DNA from: Leeuwenhoekiella parthenopeia
GTDB taxonomy: Bacteria; Bacteroidota; Bacteroidia; Flavobacteriales; Flavobacteriaceae
Direction of reading: 5' to 3'
Length of the DNA stretch: 64,000 bases
Assembly (NCBI RefSeq): GCF_020782115.1
Contig: NZ_JAJGMW010000002.1
Coordinates: 62,001-126,000, forward strand
The first letter of the stretch is position 1; every line of letters starts with the position of its first letter. Of the stretch, positions 2,053 to 21,303 are shown piece after piece. The notes beneath the pieces are model-generated. The model worked only from the letters and a program-made list of their open reading frames with translations, made no database searches and was not told the origin of the DNA. Made by a program: the position numbers and the translations under genes.

Positions 2053-2501
2053 ATACTGTAATTGAAAACACTCAAAACAGACTGCAAGAAATAGCCGGTT
2101 TAAAGTACGTTGATGAAGATTGGGGGCAATTAGACTACTATAGCCCTAATCCGCCCGTAAAATGGCCGTGTGTGCTTATAGATATCGCAAATGCAAGTTT
2201 TAGCGACGTAGGTAAAGACCGAAACAAAACACCACAGAATAGGCAAATGGGTGATGAAGTATTATCGCTAACGGTTGCAGATATGCGTTTAACCAATTCC
2301 AGTGGCCGCGCTCCCTTACTTCAAAAGAATAATGCACGTTCTATCTGGGCAATTATGGAAGATATACATGCGAAGCTACAGGGTTGGAGTGCCACACCAA
2401 TGAGTGGAAAATTTATGCGACGCTCCAGACAACGTATAAGACGCGATGATGGAATACAAGAATACCGGTTGATGTATGTATTTAGCGAGACCGATGCTTA
2501 A
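2049..2501 (+). CDS. Probable phage tail terminator or neck protein
   Basis: The gene is coupled to the gpG gene by an ATGA overlap. The 150-residue product has no motif I can name with certainty. Its length, its position directly after gpG and its mixed alpha/beta pattern (KWPCVLIDIANASF, then VLSLTVADMRL) fit the tail-completion or tail-terminator proteins at this place in Mu-like and HK97-like late operons. It is the last rightward late gene here and meets a leftward gene with a four-base overlap at 2498-2501. Other head and tail genes must lie to the left, outside the window. Confidence 0.5.
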   Translation: MNTVIENTQNRLQEIAGLKYVDEDWGQLDYYSPNPPVKWPCVLIDIANASFSDVGKDRNKTPQNRQMGDEVLSLTVADMRLTNSSGRAPLLQKNNARSIWAIMEDIHAKLQGWSATPMSGKFMRRSRQRIRRDDGIQEYRLMYVFSETDA

Positions 2502-2743
2502 AAAATAGATAGCTGTCGGTCTTCTTCAGCCTGAATTTCTTTAAGCTCTTTAGAAACCGGGGTACCTAGAATTGTATAAAGTGTTGTACGGGAGATTGCC
2601 CACTCTGGGTATATGTATTTACGCCATACGGTCATTACACTATTATCCTCAGTCTTGTGCTTATGATACAGGTCTAAGATTTTTTGATAGCGGAGGAGCT
2701 TATTGCGTTGGGTGCCGGTAATTTGACGCTGACGTTTTGGCAT
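2498..2743 (-). CDS. Small basic protein, possible HTH
   Basis: This 81-residue, Lys/Arg-rich protein has a pattern suggesting a helix-turn-helix: KILDLYHKHKTEDNSVMTVWRKYI and then SRTTLYTILGTPVSKEL. It is the last gene on the leftward strand before the rightward late arm. A bidirectional-looking hairpin separates it from the cargo operon upstream. A regulatory role at the early/late boundary is possible but not shown; I do not recognise the family. Confidence 0.55.
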   Translation of the reverse strand: MPKRQRQITGTQRNKLLRYQKILDLYHKHKTEDNSVMTVWRKYIYPEWAISRTTLYTILGTPVSKELKEIQAEEDRQLSIF

Positions 2744-2832: not shown

Positions 2833-3345
2833 TTAGTAGGTGTTGTTCCTTATTTCCCAAGGAGCGCCATTGTTAGAGAGCCTAATATTAACACCGGTAG
2901 TTTTGTCTTTTACATCGCGGTATTTAAAACTTGATTCTGCAAGCTCAGCAGTTACTGAAGGTAAGAACTCTGCTTTCCACACAGCAAAAAGATCTTCATA
3001 GTCACCGGCAACATTATTAAAGCGTATTCCAGTATCATACACGTCAAAATAAACGACTAGACAACTTGTACACCCCATCTCTAAAGCTTCATTAAAAGCC
3101 TCTTCAGACAAGCTTGCAGGTACATAATAGTAATTCAAGTGATTGTCTTCCTGCTCAGCCTTTAAAAGCCTGTAATCTGTCTCAGCTGCTCCAGCTATGT
3201 CATTGGCTAGATCAGCAGCGCTTAAGCTGTCAAGCTGTAATACCTTTGCTTTAATCTCAGTATAGGTTTCAGGTTTTAAGCTATAACCATCTTGGGCAAA
3301 GCTTACGGAACCAATTAATAAAAGTGTATAGAGTAAGTTTTTCAT
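2833..3345 (-). CDS. Small exported protein of the cargo operon
   Basis: I place the start at the ATG at 3345, where a clean Sec signal peptide begins (MKNLLYTLLLIGSVSFA, then QDG). The longer frame reaching 3438 would bury this signal and overlap the gene upstream. The mature part of about 150 residues is acidic, with a CTSC pair and a Trp-containing C-terminus, and belongs to no family I recognise. It begins one base after the stop of the GHKL ATPase gene, so it is very likely cotranscribed. An exported product is unusual beside a restriction-like pair. It may instead be a lysogenic-conversion protein. Confidence 0.6.
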   Translation of the reverse strand: MKNLLYTLLLIGSVSFAQDGYSLKPETYTEIKAKVLQLDSLSAADLANDIAGAAETDYRLLKAEQEDNHLNYYYVPASLSEEAFNEALEMGCTSCLVVYFDVYDTGIRFNNVAGDYEDLFAVWKAEFLPSVTAELAESSFKYRDVKDKTTGVNIRLSNNGAPWEIRNNTY

Positions 3346-3346
3346 A

Positions 3347-5227
3347 TTATTGGAACTCATCATATTTGTCAATAAATTCTTTGTGATATGATAGCGCATC
3401 TTGAAGTAAATCATGATATGATTTGAAGTATACGTCATTACTATCTCTGTAAGATTTAGCTTTTTTTATTGCTAAAGGGTTATCTGAAAGTTTATTACCA
3501 ATAACATAACAAAATACTTTACCTCCTTGATGCTCATTTAGAATTCTAGCTTCTAAAAAAGATACGTATGCCATTCCTTGTTCCAAATCCATAGCATTTA
3601 TTGTCTTACTTGGTCTCTTAAGTTCTACTATAAATTTTCCTTGACCAAATTTTAAACATAAGAAATCAATCCTTCTATCTTTCTCATCAAGTTCGACTTC
3701 TTCAAATTTCGTCTTTAGTAAGTCTGAGTAGGTCACCTCATCTTTAAATTCCATCATTCTAGGGTCAAGTATCCATGGGAATTCTTTTAAAAAATTATGC
3801 ATTGTTGGTACTTCCTTTGAATCTGCTTTTATATGCTCCTGAAATTTTTTAATGGCTTCCAATCGCACTTGAGCTATCTTATACATCTCACGAGACTCAA
3901 TGTGCTTCCATTCTTTAAGCAAACCAAGCACCTTTTCGATATCCTGTACATCACTTTGATCAATGTCATTTGCTAATTCCTTAAACGCTTCAAATTGAAA
4001 TGAGTCTTTGACAAATTTAACCAGTTCGGTAGATTTAGATTTATCAATTCCTTCACTATTTATAATTGAAGTCACCATTTTTCTGGCGAGAGTTCTTTCC
4101 AAGGAAGGTAGTTTCTCCACCCAAGAGTCAATTGATACACCTGATTGCTTTTCGAAATCTTTAATTTTAAACTCCTCTTTAATTTTTTTTGATTCATTAT
4201 AAATTTTGGAAATTACTGAGGCCAGATAACGTCGTAATTGTTTGGTTTCGTCCGTTTCCCAATTTAAAGATCTCCTATTTGTAGATATTACATCCTGATC
4301 AAATAGATCAATATAATCTACATTAAGCCATCCAGTTAAATAAGAATAACCGTGGCTAGTAGCAGTCAGATCGTAGAATTCATATTCGTTAACTAATTTA
4401 TTTCTTGAGAATAAAGAAATACCACGCATATTGTGGGGGACTGTTTCTTTTGAAAGAATAATTTTTCCAGTAATTAAATCTTCACAGTAATAATCTTTTG
4501 GATTCCTATCTTTATGAAACGGAAAAACCCAAGACTTAAGCTCGTGAATGTTGCTATAAATTAAACCATTCTGAACCTCAGTTTTATTAGCCTTATCATT
4601 ATGGTAAATTACCACATCAAATTCATTTTCATCAAAAACTTGAAAAGATTTAGCCAAAGAGTAGGCTATACTTTCTGGGTCGAATTGTGTCACTCTATTG
4701 ATATTATGTAAAGTTATCAATGTGCCATCACCCTTATCAACTTCCTTGTCTTGATGAATGATTTCAGGCTTATAATTTTCTTCTGAGCTACCTAAACCTT
4801 TAATTTTATTCCAGTCCAATATAAATTTGTTCTCCAATCCATTTGCGATGGTAACGACTTCAATACGATCAGAAATACCAAAAAAAGATAACTTTCCAAT
4901 ACCTTTTTTACCAATAACGAATCTTAAGTCATTCTTGCTTTTCTGAGATTGAGTATCAACCCTACGGTTTCTACCTATTCTTAGAAAATTAGTGTTAATT
5001 TCTTTAAAGGTCATACCGTGACCATCATCCTCAATTGATATTGACTTTTTTGCAGCTTTATCCCTTAAAAATATTTGAACTTTCTTAGCCTCTGCGTCAT
5101 ATGAATTAGATACAATTTCCGCAATTATTGGAGGTAATGTTGAATACATCTTAACTCCAAGATGCTCAATAGTGTTAGGATCAAACTTCATTTCTAACAC
5201 TTCTTCAGTAGCTTTATTCATTGACAT
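3347..5227 (-). CDS. GHKL (MORC/MutL-like) ATPase fused to a PD-(D/E)XK nuclease-like domain
   Basis: The 626-residue protein has an N-terminal GHKL ATPase domain: N box EIVSNSYDAEA with Glu37 and Asn41, G1 motif DDGHG (67-71), and G2 motif GKKGIGK (106-112). The middle is helical. The C-terminus (about 518-560) carries Asp521 followed by E-x-K at Glu535/Lys537 in a beta-rich context, a PD-(D/E)XK/DUF4263-like arrangement. MutL/MORC-type ATPases linked to nucleases and methyltransferases are an established restriction-system architecture, and the C5 methyltransferase directly upstream, 13 bases away, supports this. DNA cleavage coupled to ATP-driven clamping is inferred. Base composition is visibly more AT-rich than the surrounding phage genes. 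Confidence 0.8.
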   Translation of the reverse strand: MSMNKATEEVLEMKFDPNTIEHLGVKMYSTLPPIIAEIVSNSYDAEAKKVQIFLRDKAAKKSISIEDDGHGMTFKEINTNFLRIGRNRRVDTQSQKSKNDLRFVIGKKGIGKLSFFGISDRIEVVTIANGLENKFILDWNKIKGLGSSEENYKPEIIHQDKEVDKGDGTLITLHNINRVTQFDPESIAYSLAKSFQVFDENEFDVVIYHNDKANKTEVQNGLIYSNIHELKSWVFPFHKDRNPKDYYCEDLITGKIILSKETVPHNMRGISLFSRNKLVNEYEFYDLTATSHGYSYLTGWLNVDYIDLFDQDVISTNRRSLNWETDETKQLRRYLASVISKIYNESKKIKEEFKIKDFEKQSGVSIDSWVEKLPSLERTLARKMVTSIINSEGIDKSKSTELVKFVKDSFQFEAFKELANDIDQSDVQDIEKVLGLLKEWKHIESREMYKIAQVRLEAIKKFQEHIKADSKEVPTMHNFLKEFPWILDPRMMEFKDEVTYSDLLKTKFEEVELDEKDRRIDFLCLKFGQGKFIVELKRPSKTINAMDLEQGMAYVSFLEARILNEHQGGKVFCYVIGNKLSDNPLAIKKAKSYRDSNDVYFKSYHDLLQDALSYHKEFIDKYDEFQ

Positions 5228-5240
5228 AAACTAATTTATT

Positions 5241-6299
5241 TTAATTATTAACAATAGCTAGTCCTATTCTTTTGGCATACTCTGGAGGTACAGCGTTACC
5301 GATTAATCTTGCAACTTTTGCAATACTGGTACCTATAAACTTATAATCTTTCGGAAATGATTGTAAAGTAGCTCCCTCTCTAATTGAAAGAGCGCGATTT
5401 TCATCAGGATGTACAAAACGACCATTTGAAACACTAAAAAATTTGGTTGTAATTGTAGGTGAAGCACGATTCCACCATAGCCTACCAAAAGTATCTCTAA
5501 AAGAGTTTTCTCTACCTACAAAACATTTTAATTGCAATTCTGGATCATTAGCAAAACCAAACCGACTGCCTCCATTCTTCTTTACTTTTTTTAATCTTTT
5601 AAGAGTGACTTCATTAATTCCCGGTGCGGTATGAAAAAAATCTGTTTCGTCTTTTGTTCCTGCTGTAATTTTTGCAAAACCATTTTTCTCTCCAATAACA
5701 TCAGCAACTGTGAGTCTGAAATCTGATTTTACGGGTTCGAGTTCATTTTCATTAACCCTATTTGCAATTAACGTAAAACGTTTCCTGTTTTGCGGAACTC
5801 CATATTCAACTGTATTGTGAACTTTAAAGTGAACTTTATAGCCATTCTGATTTAGCCAATTTATAAAAGATTCTAATCCACTTTCACCTTTCTTTCGAAG
5901 CACCCCAGGTACGTTTTCAACAACTACATAACCGGGGTTAAAGTATTGAACAAACCTTTCAAATTCAACTAATAGGTTTTTTGATTTCTTAGATTTTTCC
6001 TTATCCGTATTTATGATACTCCAGAATTGGCAAGGACTGCAACCGATAAGTAATAAATTATCATCATTTCTAGTAATTGGCAATTTTTTTTCTAAGTCCT
6101 CCTCTTTTAGGTCAAAAACATCCTCATTAATAAATTTTGCACCCTTAATATTTGCCTCATAAGTTGCTTTGCAAGATTTTTCAAAATCTATTCCACCTAA
6201 AACATTAATTCCGGCTTGTTGCATACCGTAGCTCATACCCCCTCCACCACAGAAGAAGTCCACAGCTTTTATATTATTGTTTTTTATTTTCAATTTCAA
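5241..6299 (-). CDS. DNA (cytosine-5) methyltransferase
   Basis: The 352-residue protein has all core C5-methyltransferase motifs in order: I (DFFCGGGGMS, about 14-23), IV (CSPCQ with catalytic Cys90), VI (VENVPG, 127-132), VIII (QNRKRF, about 170-175), IX (SIREGATLQSFP) and X (GNAVPP). It transfers a methyl group from S-adenosylmethionine to cytosine. The start codon is TTG at 6299; the next Met lies beyond motif I and is too late. The target-recognition region, between VIII and IX, is short. It leads the cargo operon and probably protects DNA from the neighbouring ATPase-nuclease. Confidence 0.92.
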   Translation of the reverse strand: MKLKIKNNNIKAVDFFCGGGGMSYGMQQAGINVLGGIDFEKSCKATYEANIKGAKFINEDVFDLKEEDLEKKLPITRNDDNLLLIGCSPCQFWSIINTDKEKSKKSKNLLVEFERFVQYFNPGYVVVENVPGVLRKKGESGLESFINWLNQNGYKVHFKVHNTVEYGVPQNRKRFTLIANRVNENELEPVKSDFRLTVADVIGEKNGFAKITAGTKDETDFFHTAPGINEVTLKRLKKVKKNGGSRFGFANDPELQLKCFVGRENSFRDTFGRLWWNRASPTITTKFFSVSNGRFVHPDENRALSIREGATLQSFPKDYKFIGTSIAKVARLIGNAVPPEYAKRIGLAIVNN

Positions 6300-6315
6300 A
6301 AATTTGGTATACTCA

Positions 6316-6323
6316 CAAAAGTA
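6316..6323 (-). promoter_or_regulatory. Probable promoter -7 box of the cargo operon
   Basis: On the minus strand the sequence TACTTTTG matches the Bacteroidota -7 consensus TAnnTTTG. It lies 16 bases before the TTG start of the methyltransferase in an AT-rich gap of 61 bases. No clear TTG element is seen at the usual upstream spacing, so strength is uncertain. Confidence 0.45.
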
Positions 6324-11678: not shown

Positions 11679-12626
11679 TTAGTACTGGTTTGACAGGTTC
11701 AACACTTTTTTGATAAATGGTACGGTGATTTCCTCTCCAGTTCGGTCAGCCTCACGACGTACAGGAACTAACACATCGTGCAACTCACCATAGTTATCGC
11801 ATATTTGAGTTAAGAAGGCTTGAACCGGCTTTGAAAGGCCATTTAAAAACAGTTTAAATGATCTATCAACAGTAGGAAGTTGACGAATACCAAATTTGAT
11901 ACGGCGGTAAAACTGAGGGATGCCGGGTTTATCTTTCTTGCGAAGGCTGTCAAGGTTTTTAAGGAGCTGAGGCGTACCAATAAGAATAATACTGGCGTGC
12001 TTGTGCAGGTAATCGTAAAGCTCTTTAGTAGCGCATAAAGCGGGTATCTTCATATATTCCGCCTCATCCATTATCAATTGAGGATTTGCACCGTTTTCTT
12101 TAAGATTTCTAAGCTTTGAGGCTATATCACGAAGCTTCTTTGATTTGGTCTTACCGGTTGTGATCTTTAGCTGATCTATGATTTTATCAATGATGTCAGC
12201 TAGGTTATCAGAGCTTCCTATGGTCACAACAAATGTGTCTGCCGGGTTTTTGCGGTAGAATAGATCAACAGCGTGAGTTTTACCGGCACCTGTATCACCT
12301 ATGATAAGATTAGTAGCTCCAAACTCTTTGGCATCTTTAAGGATTGATATAGCTGCCGTTAGTTGTGAGGTAGGTTGAACTTCCCAATAGGATTTTGAAA
12401 GCTGCAAGCCTATAAACTCAGCAATACGTGTGAAGTACTTATCAGCTATATTCACAACCTTATTTTTACCGGCTGAATAAGTAAAGTCTGAATCCTCTTT
12501 TAGGATGTGAGTAATAAACTCTTTACCCATACCGGCTTTAGCTGCAAAGTCTGATTGACTAAGGCCATTCTCATAGATATAGTTGCGGCATTCAAGGGCA
12601 ATGGTTTGTTTGGTTTGTAGGTTCAT
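11679..12626 (-). CDS. MuB-like AAA+ target-selection ATPase
   Basis: The 315-residue protein starts with an HTH region (about 1-60; SQSDFAAKAGMGKEFITHIL). An AAA+ core follows with Walker A GDTGAGKT (110-117), Walker B LIMDEAE (Asp187, Glu188) and a sensor-1-like strand ASIILIGTPQL. MuB proteins bind target DNA, recruit the transposase and give target immunity. The gene begins two bases after the transposase stop, the normal A-B order of Mu-like phages. Confidence 0.85.
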   Translation of the reverse strand: MNLQTKQTIALECRNYIYENGLSQSDFAAKAGMGKEFITHILKEDSDFTYSAGKNKVVNIADKYFTRIAEFIGLQLSKSYWEVQPTSQLTAAISILKDAKEFGATNLIIGDTGAGKTHAVDLFYRKNPADTFVVTIGSSDNLADIIDKIIDQLKITTGKTKSKKLRDIASKLRNLKENGANPQLIMDEAEYMKIPALCATKELYDYLHKHASIILIGTPQLLKNLDSLRKKDKPGIPQFYRRIKFGIRQLPTVDRSFKLFLNGLSKPVQAFLTQICDNYGELHDVLVPVRREADRTGEEITVPFIKKVLNLSNQY

Positions 12627-12627
12627 C

Positions 12628-14733
12628 TTAATCTAGGTATTCGTTAATATTCACTTTAGATTCGTAGTATTCGCGTTGCTCGTCTGCAAAGGTTTTAGCC
12701 TGCTTTTTAGCTTCTTTTTTAGCAGTACGCTCAACAAGCTTTTTGGAGTTATTTGCGGCTTCAATGCGTTGCTGTGATTTGTGGTTCTTGTGTTGACCAA
12801 GGCTATCGGTTAGCAGGTGTTTTGCAAGCGTGTCGTTAAGTTGTGGTGTGTCTAAGAATGGTTCTAAAATCCGCGCGTTTTCTGATCTAGTGTTAATGAT
12901 CATATTTACAGCCTCTTTATTGAAATTCTTGACGCGCTGTAATTCTTCAGAATCACCGTCCTTACGGTCAGCTAGAGCCATTGGCTGCACATACTTACGT
13001 TCAAGTAAATGCCGCTCTTTACCGTCTGAAGAAACTGCTAATACTTGATCAAGATTGTTTGTATCGTAGAGTAGTTCCCAGTCTTGGTGTGCTTGATGTC
13101 TAAAATTAATATCAAAGCTGTCGTAATAGTGTTTTTCACCTTCAATGGTGATCTTTACACCTTCACCCGTGAGCCTGTTAGTTGCTCCTGTAGTACTTCC
13201 AAAAGTGAGGAAGTAACTATCTAAGCTCATTATTTGTTTATGCTCAGGCTTAGTAGACAACCAGTTCTGTTTATACTCTTCAATTTTCTTAGAGCGTTCT
13301 GAGTTTACAATAGCTTCAATTTGACTAATGCAACCAGCTTGATCAGGAAATGACTTCTTGATTTTATCAAGGTATTCACTGTTAGGTTGGTTTTTTGAAC
13401 CGCTGTCGACATTAAAACCACTCCAGTTATTAAGAAGCTTGCAATACTTCTTGTTGAGCATACTGAAATACGGCTCAATCACTTTAGCTTTTGCATTACC
13501 TACTTGAGCAGGAGTAAAGTTTGGAGTGATGGCGTTATACGTTGATAAAAGCGCCTTTTTTGCGTAGTTGTCACTTTGCAATTGATAAGGCATATATAAT
13601 TCTCCAAAAAGCTCTCTAGTGTGCTGCATTGCGTTTTGCAATGCGTTCTTAATAAGCTCTGGACTTTCGTTAGTTCCTATTGAATAGCCTATAGGATAAT
13701 TGTTATGTGGATCAAGAACTTGAATTAATGTTAAGCGGTTATGGTAAGTAGTGCGTTTCTTACCGTCCTTATCGACCACCGTAGCTTGATACAATAACTC
13801 AACATCCCAACCATCTAAAGTCCAATAAAGCATTGGGCTGCTAGGTTTGCTACGCTTCACCTGCATAAGCTTTTTGTTTTGTAATGATTTTACACCGTTT
13901 CTTCCTGCATGTGTTACTAGACCGCTCTGTTGTTTTCTATTACCAACGGTCATCGCCGTAATAGTTGGCCAGTTCATTTTTTCAGCTACTGTGTTGTAGA
14001 TAGTCTTTATAAGCTCGTTGTCAAGGTTGGTGTGCTTCGATATTAACTCATCGAGCAGGGCCATCTGCTCTTTTTCAGTCACCTTCTTGGCGTTAGAGTT
14101 TTGCAGTTTTCCCGAAACAAGACTGAGGTATCCTTCTTTTTGGTATCGTGTTGCTTTGCGTCTTAAACCGTCACGGGTGGCAGGAAGGTTATGAGGAACC
14201 TCACGAAATGCGTTTACGTCATTGCTTAAGCTTTGCCAAATGTCGATTTTCACACCTCCCAACGCTTTTGCGTATGCGCGTCGGTTGGTTTTCATTTGCA
14301 GCACTGTATTCAATACTGAAGCGTTATAGGTGTATTGTTCTACAAGCTTTAGATCAAGCTTGTGCTCGTTTTTTTCACCGTAGCGATGGCGTGTATAAAA
14401 ATCAAAGGCTTTACGATCTGCGAAGTAGTGTTGGGCAAACCAACTCTCTTTAACTTCTTCCTTAGGATCGCCAAACTTTGTGGTTATTCTATCCTTCCAT
14501 TCTCGAGAAAGTGACGAGAATAAAATAAGTGTCTCATTGTTGAGCGCGCCCCGACGTAGCCTTTTTTCACAGCTAGACTTACGACGCATGCGTTTTTGTA
14601 ACGCATCATAGCTAATAAGTCTAAGACTCTCGCTATGTCGCTCGTATTGACCATCAACATCAGAGATAAGAAACTGAATTCTTACTCCGAGTTTATTGTC
14701 ATAGTATTCGTACGGGGTTTCTCGGTTAGGCAT
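12628..14733 (-). CDS. MuA-type DDE transposase
   Basis: The 701-residue protein matches MuA in size and layout. The N-terminal 290 residues contain helical DNA-binding domains. The RNase-H-fold core carries the DDE triad, most likely Asp307 in YWTLDGWD, Asp388 in LQSDNYAKK and Glu420 in KVIEPYF. A C-terminal basic helical tail (about 640-700) would contact the MuB partner. It catalyses strand transfer for integration and replicative transposition. It overlaps the small regulator upstream by eight bases. All catalytic residues are present, so activity is plausible. Confidence 0.93.
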   Translation of the reverse strand: MPNRETPYEYYDNKLGVRIQFLISDVDGQYERHSESLRLISYDALQKRMRRKSSCEKRLRRGALNNETLILFSSLSREWKDRITTKFGDPKEEVKESWFAQHYFADRKAFDFYTRHRYGEKNEHKLDLKLVEQYTYNASVLNTVLQMKTNRRAYAKALGGVKIDIWQSLSNDVNAFREVPHNLPATRDGLRRKATRYQKEGYLSLVSGKLQNSNAKKVTEKEQMALLDELISKHTNLDNELIKTIYNTVAEKMNWPTITAMTVGNRKQQSGLVTHAGRNGVKSLQNKKLMQVKRSKPSSPMLYWTLDGWDVELLYQATVVDKDGKKRTTYHNRLTLIQVLDPHNNYPIGYSIGTNESPELIKNALQNAMQHTRELFGELYMPYQLQSDNYAKKALLSTYNAITPNFTPAQVGNAKAKVIEPYFSMLNKKYCKLLNNWSGFNVDSGSKNQPNSEYLDKIKKSFPDQAGCISQIEAIVNSERSKKIEEYKQNWLSTKPEHKQIMSLDSYFLTFGSTTGATNRLTGEGVKITIEGEKHYYDSFDINFRHQAHQDWELLYDTNNLDQVLAVSSDGKERHLLERKYVQPMALADRKDGDSEELQRVKNFNKEAVNMIINTRSENARILEPFLDTPQLNDTLAKHLLTDSLGQHKNHKSQQRIEAANNSKKLVERTAKKEAKKQAKTFADEQREYYESKVNINEYLD

Positions 14734-15013: not shown

Positions 15014-15697
15014 ATGATACGACAACGGCTAGCTGAATACCTTTCAAATAAAGGGGTCAGCAATTATCAATTTTATAAGGATACCGCCCTTTCAAACGGT
15101 TATTTAGACAAGGAAGGAAGTATACGTTCTGATATTATTGAGAAAATAAGCTACAAATACCCTGAGATCAATTTAACGTGGTTAATAACCGGTCAGGGTA
15201 ATATGATCAAAGAAGTAGACCCGGTTCAAGAAAGAACCAAAGTTTATTCATTGAGAACCGATAGGCTTTTAGATGATCAATCTATACCGCTTTATGATAT
15301 AGAAGCCTCTGCGGGATTGGTAGAATTATTTCGGCACAATGGGGATTCAACCCCGGTTGATACTATAAGAATTCCCGGCCTTCCCAAGTGTGATGGTTCC
15401 GTGTATGTCACTGGTGATAGTATGTACCCACTACTTAAGAGTGGCGATATTGTTGCCTATAAAGAAATCAATGACATACAGAATAATATATACTGGGGTG
15501 AGATGTACTTAATATCTATTGACTTTGAAGGTGAGGAGTATATAAGCGTCAAGTACGTTCAAAAATCAGAGAAAGGAGATTCACACATCAAATTAGTGAG
15601 CCAGAATGCGCACCATCAACCCAAAGATGTTCCCCTTGAAAAAGTAAGGGCAATAGCCTTAATCAAGGCTACTATTAGGATTAATTCAATGGGATAA
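15014..15697 (+). CDS. LexA/CI-type phage repressor with S24 peptidase domain
   Basis: The 227-residue protein has an N-terminal DNA-binding part (about 1-60) and a C-terminal S24 autocleavage domain. The likely cleavage site is Ala100-Gly101 in EASAGLV, the catalytic serine is Ser136 in GDSMYP, and the general-base lysine is probably Lys180 in ISVKYV. RecA-stimulated self-cleavage would link induction of the prophage to DNA damage. It is transcribed away from the early operon, across the operator region, as expected for the lysogeny switch. Confidence 0.88.
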   Translation: MIRQRLAEYLSNKGVSNYQFYKDTALSNGYLDKEGSIRSDIIEKISYKYPEINLTWLITGQGNMIKEVDPVQERTKVYSLRTDRLLDDQSIPLYDIEASAGLVELFRHNGDSTPVDTIRIPGLPKCDGSVYVTGDSMYPLLKSGDIVAYKEINDIQNNIYWGEMYLISIDFEGEEYISVKYVQKSEKGDSHIKLVSQNAHHQPKDVPLEKVRAIALIKATIRINSMG

Positions 15698-16147: not shown

Positions 16148-16172
16148 ATGAGCCCTTTTTTGGCTCTTTTTT
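16121..16172 (+). terminator. Double terminator at the prophage edge
   Basis: Two hairpins follow each other: CGCC/GGCG with loop CGTA (16121-16132) followed by CTTATTTT, and GAGCC/GGCTC with loop CTTTTTT (16150-16166) followed by six T residues. They would stop rightward transcription from the repressor before it enters hsdS. Confidence 0.7.
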
Positions 16173-17107
16173 ATTGTGGGCTTTTTAATTTATGGGGGGT
16201 ATATGTAGTGAAAGGTCCTGGTTATGATTTAAAATTTTTATTCTACAACCTGCAGACCTGTAATTTGGAAAGGTTGAATTCAGATGCCGCTGTACCGGGA
16301 TTAAATAGAGAAAATGCCTATTCCCAAAGAATCGCAATACCACCCCTTCAAACCCAAAAAAAAATAGCCTCCATTCTCAGCGCTTATGATGATCTAATCG
16401 AAAACAACCTTAAACGCATCAAGCTTCTAGAAGAAGCAGCCCAGCGTATTTATAAAGAATGGTTTGTAGATTTCAAATTCCCCAACTACGAAAACACGCC
16501 CATAAATCCTGAAACTGGTTTGCCTGAGGGTTGGAGAAACATTGAGATTGCTGATTTTGGAGATGTTGTGACAGGTAAAACTCCGTCCACTAAGAAAAGG
16601 GAATTTTATCACGGAAAAATACCATTCATAAAAACTCCGGATATGCATGATGGTAATTATATTCTAAAGACAAGTTTAACTTTAACAGAAGAAGGCAGTA
16701 AAACACAGAAAAAAAAGCTATTACCTAAAAATTCTGTTTTGGTTAGTTGTATTGGTACTGCAGGAATCGTTGCAATTAATTCTGAGCCTGCTCAATTCAA
16801 TCAGCAAATAAATGCTGTAAGATTTGAAGAAGTATATAAGCATATTTATTTCTACTTTTTTGCTAAATCCCTAAAGGTACATTTAGAAGCTTTGGGAAGC
16901 AATGGAGCAACTATGGTCAATGTCAATAAAGGAAAATTTGAAAGAATTAAAATGTTGTGCCCGTCAGATGACTTGTTAAAATATTTTCATATCAAAACAT
17001 CAGGGATTTTTAGCCAGATTCTTCATTTAAAGAAACAGAATCAAAACCTCCAAGAAGGCAGAGACTTGTTACTACCCCGATTTATGAATAGAACCATTGA
17101 AGTATGA
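16148..17107 (+). pseudogene. hsdS: Type I restriction specificity subunit HsdS, 5' truncated
   Basis: Only the second half of an HsdS is present. Similarity starts around residue 20 of this frame (VVKGPGYDLKFLFYNLQ). Next come the end of the first domain (AVPGLNRENAY), the central conserved helix (QKKIASILSAYDDLIENN, about 70-87), a second target-recognition domain (about 118-270) and the C-terminal helix. The first target-recognition domain is missing, and the apparent ATG lies inside a phage terminator. The Mu-like prophage has most likely inserted into the gene, with the 5' part beyond its other end. A half-HsdS can sometimes dimerise into a working subunit, so function is not excluded. 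It overlaps hsdR by four bases. Confidence 0.85.
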
Positions 17108-20100: not shown

Positions 20101-20301
20101 CTAAAGAAACTTCAGGAGAACGAGTTTAAGGTCGTTAACTGGTCTGAAAAGAGTCAGACTAAAGCTGCTGTGAGAAAAGCTATTAATGACTACCTATACA
20201 GCAAATTGCCCTATCCTACGTACGAGGATGGCGACATCGCAGTTAAGACCGAGTTGCTCTATAACTTTTTTGAGCTGCAGTATCATAGTTATTCGGCGTG
20301 A
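17104..20301 (+). CDS. hsdR: Type I restriction endonuclease HsdR
   Basis: The 1065-residue protein is full length. It has an N-terminal PD-(D/E)XK nuclease (Asp151, Glu165-x-Lys167 in VFIELKAH), SF2 motor motifs I (TQGSGKS, about 310-316), II (DEAH, 407-410) and III-like (FTGTPLF), and a helicase C half (MQAIARANRVHTGKNNG). The helical C-terminus would bind HsdM2S. It translocates and cuts unmodified DNA when assembled with HsdM and HsdS. Here hsdM is absent from the window and hsdS is broken, so the complex may not form. The frame is intact, suggesting recent disruption or use with another HsdMS. Confidence 0.93.
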   Translation: MSNDYSEDSLIEKTTMRLFADLEWETANVFYNESFGANGTIGRDSQDQVILKHLFLKAIQELNPDLPSAAYIQAYEQISKAELSKTLIDINKDKYELLKRGIPVTYKNDKGELIREKKLKVFNFDNPTSNHFLAVQQLWVAGVSGRKRRADVVGFVNGIPLVFIELKAHHIPIRQAYEKNISDYKDVIPKLWHTNAFIVLSNGIESKVGSLTSKFVHYHEWKRIREEEEGIISLETVIKGTCDKSNLLDIFENYILYDDSLDKTAKLVARNHQFLGVNKAYNHFQDLKSKFKAGLISREESQRLGVFWHTQGSGKSYSMVFWTQKILQTLSSTYTFVLLTDRTELDDQIYGTYDGVGVVKNKKAKARSAAHLKQLLQTDNKYIFSLIHKFNFEEELSLRDDIIVISDEAHRTQGGSLAMNMRKALPNASFIGFTGTPLFKDDELTKRIFGDYVSKYDFKRSIEDGATVPLYYENRGEKLRLENPQIDENIKNKIAEFDLDDNQEEKLKQLFAREYPILTANKRLKAIAKDVVEHFNTRGYRGKALFIAIDKVTAVKMYDFISEAWDNYVEELEQEASKLKDEQEQLMAYRNLKWVKETEISVIVSSEQNEIKKFRDWGLDIEPHREKMNTRDLESEFKDENNPFRLAIVCAMWITGFDVKSLSTLYIDKPLKSHTLMQAIARANRVHTGKNNGLIVDYIETYKALLKALAIYGGGGSGKPDTNDPPIDEPPVKPLEDLIEDLRETIDAMESFLKHDCDFDLKLIAEADDTIYRIKYLQEGYNAVCETQDTRNKFNVLAREVFKKYKALMPNKAIYEFKSQRDAINGLYNLIQDKVEDSDITYLVKQVQDEVNESIETYNTELDKVDDYGKQVDISKLDFDRIKEEFNQLKSNKSIAVKTLQERVKKKLDALVKKNPLRVNYYERYEQIIEDYNLGKEYKSIKEVFDELIKLFGDLNEEEKRSGAESLTEDELAVFDMLNKGKTITDKEKAEVKEAARNLLKKLQENEFKVVNWSEKSQTKAAVRKAINDYLYSKLPYPTYEDGDIAVKTELLYNFFELQYHSYSA

Positions 20302-20326: not shown

Positions 20327-21202
20327 ATGAATGAAGTCGCAGAAAATTTATTTAAGCAATTGATACCTTTAGGTCGGTTAATAGCCGTGATTCTTATTGT
20401 TTCTTCCTTTTTTTCGTGTGAAAGTAAGACAACTAATTCTTCACCAGCAAACCCTAAAATAGCGAAAGGTTTAGAAGATAAAACAGATTTAAACGAAAAG
20501 TATAAAGATTCTTTAGAGCTATTCAAGAACATTTATAAAGGCATGAGCTTTAAGGATTTTGAGTCATCCGTTATTGAACAGATTCAATCTAAAGAACTTT
20601 TTAGTTTGGATACGATCAGTGAAATAGGGAAGCTTTGGCTTGAAGGCAAACTTATAGATTCTGAAACTTTTAAAAATTTCAATATACCTGAACTAAACTA
20701 TTTTACTCTGTCCTTTGCTTCAGGGGTTTATTACCCATTGGTTGTAGGTTCAAAAACTTACTATCTAGAGGTGTTACCTCAATTCAATACAAATGGTCTT
20801 TACTCAGTAAGACTTGTTGGTCCTAATTATTACTTTTCTTCACATTCTTTAAATTCAGATGAGACCAAAAAGCGCCCTTACAATGAAGAAATTAATTTCA
20901 ATAAAGCTCTAAAAGAACTTTATGTTGAAAAATATGGAGTCTTTAGTAAGATTGAAAGTTCAACAGAATCGGATGACCCAATTTTTGATTTTAACGAATA
21001 CACTTACGATAAGAATATCTACATCCTAAAAACGGATGAAAGGATTGTTCAAATTTATATGCGTTGTTGCGACTTCAAAACTGTTGTGTCATATTTTGAC
21101 CTAACAGATTATAAAGCCGAAGAAAAACTGAAACAGGATCAATTTGAATCTGCAAAGAAACGTAATGATTCGATGAGACTAAAAAATGCTGAAGACATTT
21201 GA
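20327..21202 (+). CDS. Lipoprotein of unknown function (291 aa)
   Basis: The N-terminus has a hydrophobic segment ending in a lipobox (LIVSSFFSC, Cys at about 34), then a long, probably periplasmic part with mixed beta and helical segments (SGVYYPLVVGSKTYYLEVLP). No family is recognised. It lies 25 bases after hsdR and is followed by a second, decayed copy of the hsdR 3' end, so it appears to have arrived as an insert or by duplication in this restriction locus. Confidence 0.6.
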   Translation: MNEVAENLFKQLIPLGRLIAVILIVSSFFSCESKTTNSSPANPKIAKGLEDKTDLNEKYKDSLELFKNIYKGMSFKDFESSVIEQIQSKELFSLDTISEIGKLWLEGKLIDSETFKNFNIPELNYFTLSFASGVYYPLVVGSKTYYLEVLPQFNTNGLYSVRLVGPNYYFSSHSLNSDETKKRPYNEEINFNKALKELYVEKYGVFSKIESSTESDDPIFDFNEYTYDKNIYILKTDERIVQIYMRCCDFKTVVSYFDLTDYKAEEKLKQDQFESAKKRNDSMRLKNAEDI

Positions 21203-21242: not shown

Positions 21243-21303
21243 AAAAGTCAGACTAATGCCTTTTTATAAATTTTTTGAGCTGCAATATCATAGTTATCGA
21301 AGT
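21243..21303 (+). pseudogene. Decayed duplicate of the hsdR 3' end
   Basis: Two pieces match the end of hsdR: AAAGTCAGACTAA at about 21245-21257 corresponds to about 20155, and TTTTTTGAGCTGCA(A/G)TATC plus ATAGTTAT at about 21272-21297 corresponds to 20266-20293, encoding FFELQYHSY. About 100 bases between them are missing compared with hsdR. The copy is too short to be functional. Confidence 0.7.

Follow-up and report, generated by a model that had tools for sequence, protein, structure and literature searches.

A putative methyltransferase and ATPase-nuclease gene pair of the paraMORC3 kind carried by a Mu-like prophage of Leeuwenhoekiella parthenopeia

The paraMORC3 proteins, reported to be prevalent in proteobacteria and bacteroidetes, were described by Iyer, Abhiman and Aravind in 2008 (PMC2292703) as a combination of GHKL and S5 domains followed by a C-terminal restriction-fold domain with the residue set E-D-ExK. 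Proteins like VcSduA, a Shedu protein with a GHKL ATPase at its N-terminus, were earlier annotated as paraMORC3, and the anti-phage activity of VcSduA is lost upon changing an ATPase or a nuclease residue (PMC12137116). M.HgiDII methylates C5 in the sequence GTCGAC (PMC5867850). The subject of this report is a stretch of 64,000 nucleotides of Leeuwenhoekiella parthenopeia (contig NZ_JAJGMW010000002.1, positions 62,001 to 126,000; hereafter the window) from a genome of 4.42 Mb, in which two adjacent genes, encoding a C5 cytosine DNA methyltransferase (M) and an ATPase-nuclease (R), are located within a Mu-like prophage. It is very likely that the two genes form a type II-like restriction-modification (R-M) cassette inserted in this prophage, which would act in defence by methylation-controlled, ATP-dependent cleavage.

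A total of three open reading frames (ORFs) follow one another on the minus strand, M (6299-5241), R (5227-3347) and a gene for an exported protein (3345-2833), with spacers of 13 bases between M and R and of a single base between R and the exported gene. M (352 amino acids, TTG start) matched PF00145 over residues 11-350 (E 1.5e-55, Pfam) and TIGR00675 above its cut-off (6.1e-44, NCBIfam), and the sequences FCGGGG, PCQ, ENV, QNRKR and GNAVP, which we take to be the C5 motif set, were all found. The initial annotation, which had listed three adjacent genes beginning with a complete C5 methyltransferase, was thus correct in where it placed the genes and in the nature of the first gene. M was the sole PF00145 match in a search of the genome, and with this single C5 methyltransferase gene any C5 methylation present would be directly assignable to M. 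The closest relative of M seen, 71% identical, adjoins the closest relative of R seen, 52% identical, in a Bacteroidia metagenome-assembled genome (L001).

R (3347-5227, minus strand; 626 amino acids) gave a HATPase_c_3 match (2.5e-22) and a weak C-terminal HSDR_N_2 match (0.0042) under the Pfam cut-off. In NCBIfam, R scored best against NF050001 (306.5 bits), the model named "BbrUII/HgiDII family restriction enzyme"; PADLOC contributed two models of type II restriction enzymes, at 115 (REase_II) and 92 bits, and phrog_6203 (function unknown) of PHROGs spans residues 9-624. The conservation of R was examined in an alignment of 23 sequences, composed of 19 of 80 viral relatives picked by hand as near full length, P0002 and the sequences of L001-L003, the window's own being included in the 23. 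The ATPase residues E37, N41, D44, D67, G69, G71, G106, K108, G109, G111 and K112 were invariant in all 23 sequences, as were the nuclease residues E472, D521 and E535, of which E472 completes the E-D-ExK set. The active-site stretch of the nuclease (E472, D521, E535-x-K537) thus covers residues 472-537, at 3617-3814 on the minus strand.

The order helix-strand-strand-helix-strand is that of the restriction-type nuclease core. The AlphaFold2 model of R, with a mean predicted local distance difference test score (pLDDT) of 79 and a predicted template modelling score of 0.59, displays in its C-terminal part a helix (472-482), two strands at the acidic residues (522-525 and 531-536), a helix (545-562) and a strand (571-577), and the C-terminus is therefore predicted to be a restriction-fold domain with E-D-ExK, in a region where pLDDT is partly low. 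The top Foldseek chains for the whole model were HtpG, MORC2, MORC3, TRAP1 and GyrB, aligned over 371-563 columns, and a domain of S5 type probably follows the ATPase domain, as judged from this fold alignment and not from a domain model. Alignment and model altogether support the earlier proposal of a MORC/MutL-like ATPase fused to a PD-(D/E)XK domain with D521 and E535-x-K537, and the nuclease topology to be expected of the predicted C-terminal structure was seen in its order of secondary structure. As judged from its sequence, R is a predicted restriction enzyme of the paraMORC3 or BbrUII-HgiDII-like kind, the NF050001 score being insufficient for the same enzyme or the same specificity.

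The linkage of M and R was examined in relatives of R. A scan of viral contigs with the single R sequence gave no relatives, which were found by an alignment-based search; the best 80 of 153 contigs were analysed without dereplication (L104-L106 gave identical figures), some of them with short flanks. In 78 of these best 80 viral loci, an ORF for a C5 methyltransferase was located no more than 500 bp away from the R relative, and in one more at 959 bp; it was on the same strand as R in 50 of the 79 loci having one. In a sample of the phylum, an R relative was present in 14 of 385 genomes (own genome included), and 11 of 15 further phylum loci (1.5 kb flanks) carried a C5 methyltransferase near it; in a sample of the order, R relatives at 1e-30 were detected in two of 395 genomes, its own and one other. 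R relatives were also found on plasmids and in genomes, several of them annotated next to a cytosine methyltransferase. Three records listed as plasmids (NZ_CP119142, NZ_CP119140 and NZ_CP030101) are 2.2-2.9 Mb long, a chromosome-like length. A search of other genomes for the three-gene order had been suggested; the pairing of M and R is recurrent, and adjacent methyltransferase and endonuclease genes, the latter assigned by family and model, are the arrangement of a type II R-M system.

In the proposed explanation, the M-R cassette would have landed between the end of the early arm of the prophage and the resident exported gene. M would methylate cytosine C5 at a specific site, marking the DNA of both host and prophage, and R would bind ATP, close on DNA as a GHKL dimer clamp like the MORC, MutL and Hsp90-type ATPases, and cut by its PD-(D/E)XK domain the DNA with unmethylated sites. 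In the lysogen, superinfecting phages and other incoming DNA would be restricted, and loss of the prophage would be made costly. The ATP-gated clamp, site-specific cleavage, control by methylation and defence are what we infer from the genes, and the mechanism of R is supported by analogy because VcSduA, with a similar domain order, needs both ATPase and nuclease residues.

A number of observations weigh against this explanation. The NF050001 score of R is lower than the curated cut-off of 550; position 537 is K in 16 of the 23 aligned sequences and M in seven; pLDDT of the model drops to 48-59 at residues 491-530; and a restriction-type nuclease was absent from the best 50 Foldseek rows for the whole R model. 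GTCGAC was not clearly avoided in the prophage, where it was seen twice versus 2.0 expected from shorter words and 5.3 from base composition. In addition, no C5 methyltransferase was found in one of the best 80 viral R loci, within 1.5 kb in four of the 15 phylum loci, or in the approximately 21.8 kb examined of L002 and L003, which carry R relatives of Gastranaerophilales. Because of these last loci, M may be dispensable for some R relatives.

GHKL clamps are able to respond to the structure of DNA, and R might be a Shedu-like anti-phage nuclease that senses a feature other than an unmethylated site, for instance DNA ends or superstructure, with M loosely associated or employed for self-masking only. 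The relatives without a linked C5 methyltransferase are in agreement with such an activity, and VcSduA, whose domains follow a similar order, was counted among the Shedu systems (PMC12137116). This alternative is nevertheless improbable, given the adjacent C5 methyltransferase in nearly all of the best 80 viral loci, the closest curated family being a restriction enzyme, and the lack of any Pfam-A match of R to DUF4263 at E up to 1, in a search whose HMMER filters drop most of the very weak matches.

The third gene (2833-3345, minus strand) encodes 170 amino acids if translation starts at the ATG with which a signal peptide, recognized by eye and without lipobox, is obtained (the longest ORF starts at 3438); with this choice of start, the signal-peptide protein of the initial annotation was confirmed. 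Searches of NCBIfam, PADLOC, PHROGs and PDB sequences returned no match, the phage records likewise yielded nothing of use, and Pfam gave one row only (E 0.24), far under its cut-off. Foldseek with the predicted structure (pLDDT 75.9) gave nothing at E <=0.001, the best hits being 0.066 in PDB and 0.0094 in BFVD. A few NTF2-like and cystatin-like chains were among the PDB hits at E >0.3, and no fold is claimed. The family, unmatched in the libraries searched, is a small question in its own right.

A scan of viral contigs with the exported protein alone detected no relatives; these were found by an alignment-based search, and further relatives were found in genomes of the order. The family was found in 10 distinct Mu-like phage loci besides the window (L015, L016, L017, L018, L034, L038, L039, L040, L041 and L042; L038 and L039 were seen in part only, and L043 was left out because it repeats L017, with 100% identity over 16462 bases). 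In these, the exported gene is located on the opposite strand where the convergent arms meet, no more than a few small genes away from relatives of the neck genes, and a weak match (9e-4) occupies the same slot in L033 (L033:7904-8338). Neither M nor R was found in the stretches examined of these 10 loci, L033, L035, L036, hankyphage p00 (L124) and a Porphyromonas phage (L125), and p00 and the Porphyromonas phage gave no match to the exported family. Near the R relatives, the exported family was found in none of the best 80 viral loci and in none of the 15 phylum loci (1.5 kb flanks). A phage-lineage gene of 81 amino acids (2498-2743, minus strand), on the phage side of the slot at the convergent junction, has relatives of 49-57% identity beside the exported gene in L015, L033, L034, L038 and L039.

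Because the exported protein itself was the query by which most of these loci were detected, they show where the family occurs, not its frequency among phages. A search by the neighbouring late gene gave 10 places besides the window, of which five contain the family (L015, L016, L017, L018 and L034), one the weak match (L033), and four are without it by profile (L035, L036, L026 and L037); the contig of L026 ends at the slot, and L037 is at a contig end, with a match interrupted by an internal stop. In L036, the slot is filled by another exported-looking protein (L036:10647-11144). The presence in the same slot of exported-looking proteins of weak or no detectable similarity (L033 and L036) suggests that this slot accommodates exported proteins that change quickly. 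The occurrence of the family extends beyond phages, because relatives in two genomes, G246 (L138) and G335 (L140), have no phage gene within 1.5 kb; their neighbours, named by eye, are a response-regulator-like gene at L138 and a proA-like gene at L140.

The G+C content is 31.9% for R and 33.8% for M, but 39.0% for the exported gene, and the other prophage genes in the window are at 38.7-42.2% (late) and 37.6-46.3% (early); the low-G+C stretch spans from about 3350 to about 6500. Since the exported gene recurs in Mu-like loci without M-R, is not found near R relatives and has a phage-like G+C content, it is set apart from M-R, and most probably belongs to the ordinary genes of this phage lineage. 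The simplest history suggested by these sequences is an insertion of M-R between the resident exported gene and the early arm, a reading in which composition agrees with the comparison of related phage loci. The exported protein could act in the envelope of the lysogen, for instance in superinfection exclusion, but this is a guess from its export and position only.

The three genes had originally been taken for one unit with an exported third member. A defence system of all three genes, with the exported protein as a sensor or effector outside the cytoplasm, is favoured by their contiguity on one strand, with gaps of 13 and one bases and a terminator-like hairpin after the third gene, so that they may well be co-transcribed. 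Such a system was rejected on the comparison of related phage loci and R loci, and is very improbable: in 10 other Mu-like loci, and as a weak match in one more, the exported gene stands without M-R, it was found in none of the best 80 viral and the 15 phylum R loci (1.5 kb flanks in the latter), and its composition matches the phage and not M-R. What stands of the mobile defence module carried as cargo is thus the M-R pair in a Mu-like prophage, without the exported protein as a member. Neighbouring genes in a phage may be unrelated, and here a seeming three-gene operon splits upon comparison of related phages.

The carrier is a Mu-like prophage of the fF4/hankyphage type, for which transposase, MuB, terminase, neck genes and convergent arms were all found. 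On the left of the trio, plus-strand phage head and neck genes extend up to 2501, and the rightward late arm is closed by a neck/morphogenesis gene and its neighbour (1504-2501; phrog_26 and phrog_6911, with PF05069 for the first gene). On the right, the early genes extend up to the MuB-like ATPase and transposase (11679-14733, minus strand; phrog_296 and phrog_310), and a repressor-like gene, recognized by eye, is located at 15014-15697 on the phage early side. These flanks (phrog_310, phrog_296 and phrog_26) bear out the predicted site between the convergent arms of a Mu-like prophage. For the terminase, identity is about 46% with Bacteroides phage p00 (hankyphage) and reaches 48.5% with another record, and the prophage is syntenic with L015, L033, L034, L038 and L039. 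A D12-class adenine methyltransferase (PF02086, 7e-8; L020:19235-20000) is located near the far prophage end, some 20 kb to the left of the first window position. The fF4-like phages of Flavobacterium (F. columnare fF4) are of similar organisation, and an adenine methyltransferase was reported for them (PMC7761591). Among all 64 six-base palindromes, avoidance in the prophage (37 kb, L020:19129 to window 16205) was strongest for GAGCTC, with no occurrence versus 6.5 expected from shorter words; we leave this observation without interpretation. The adenine methyltransferase in the same prophage, as in the fF4-like phages (PMC7761591), might suggest that M is mainly an anti-restriction shield of the phage, like mom and dam of transposable phages, and R an addiction part of little use in defence, but this is scarcely credible with R intact, its key residues kept, and R relatives, several beside a cytosine methyltransferase, found also on plasmids and in genomes.

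The prophage begins and ends within hsdS of the host type I R-M locus. PF01420 was matched by both parts of this gene, the left one at L020:18895-19134 and the right one at 16148-17107, and the split gene is flanked by HsdM and HsdR. TATGTA was seen by eye at both prophage junctions, in keeping with a short duplication of the target. Elsewhere in the genome, PF01420 was matched only once more, by a fragment close to the end of a contig. The empty site was not shown from relatives, the hsdS-hsdR stretch being matched elsewhere by 53 bases in one genome only among 13 genus genomes (own included). A 33-base stretch from the hsdR end (about 20260-20292) recurs with 94% identity about 1 kb downstream (about 21265-21297), the two copies flanking an ORF at 20327-21202. 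In a wider reading, which as a whole is rather unlikely, the junction between the convergent arms of flavobacterial Mu-like phages would be a cargo slot with a resident exported family, which lacks known fold relatives and acts against superinfection at the envelope; in this prophage a paraMORC3 R-M pair would have been added beside it, and hsdS would have been disabled by the prophage. If so, one locus would provide an outer and an inner barrier, and the phage would swap the host type I barrier for its own.

With respect to transcription signals, a terminator after the third gene had been predicted, and a hairpin of nine pairs with a T-rich tail, resembling an intrinsic terminator by consensus scan only, was indeed found directly 3' of the exported gene (2818-2795, minus strand), such sites numbering 15 in the 12 kb scanned versus 9.7 (standard deviation 3.0) expected. 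The promoter box assigned to the operon fared less well. The sequence TACTTTTG upstream of M (6323-6316, minus strand) fits TAnnTTTG, which we presume to be a promoter motif, and is a possible promoter element, but the pattern is not above chance (63 occurrences in the window versus 73 expected), and no well-spaced second box was seen upstream of it by eye.

The locus may finally be compared with the systems described so far. R resembles paraMORC3 in domain order and in E-D-ExK, and a DNA methylase is linked in both cases (PMC2292703); the difference is that the pair is here the cargo of a Mu-like prophage, a location not described in the part of PMC2292703 available to us. Because the architecture was described in 2008 (PMC2292703), M-R is not a new system; it is a known kind of system in a carrier that we have not seen described. 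With the BbrUII/HgiDII family (NF050001), R shares the model match and a C5 methyltransferase partner, but its score below the cut-off places it in the same kind without establishing the same enzyme or specificity. VcSduA, which is anti-phage, likewise has a GHKL ATPase and a nuclease domain (PMC12137116), but R differs by lacking a DUF4263 match and by its linked C5 methyltransferase. Escherichia phage PhiR44_1 (PV340563) carries an annotated ParaMORC3 gene beside a dcm C5 methyltransferase gene, but the annotation of this phage is that of a P2-like phage, the pair is convergent on opposite strands, and the ParaMORC3 protein is 23% identical to R. The carrier shares with the fF4-like phages (PMC7761591) and hankyphage p00 (BK010646) the transposase, MuB, convergent late genes and an adenine methyltransferase near the end, the likeness to fF4 being by description only and not by sequence; p00 differs in having no match to M, R or the exported family. 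A Mu-like phage of Bacteroidota should thus be added to the carriers of paraMORC3 R-M pairs.

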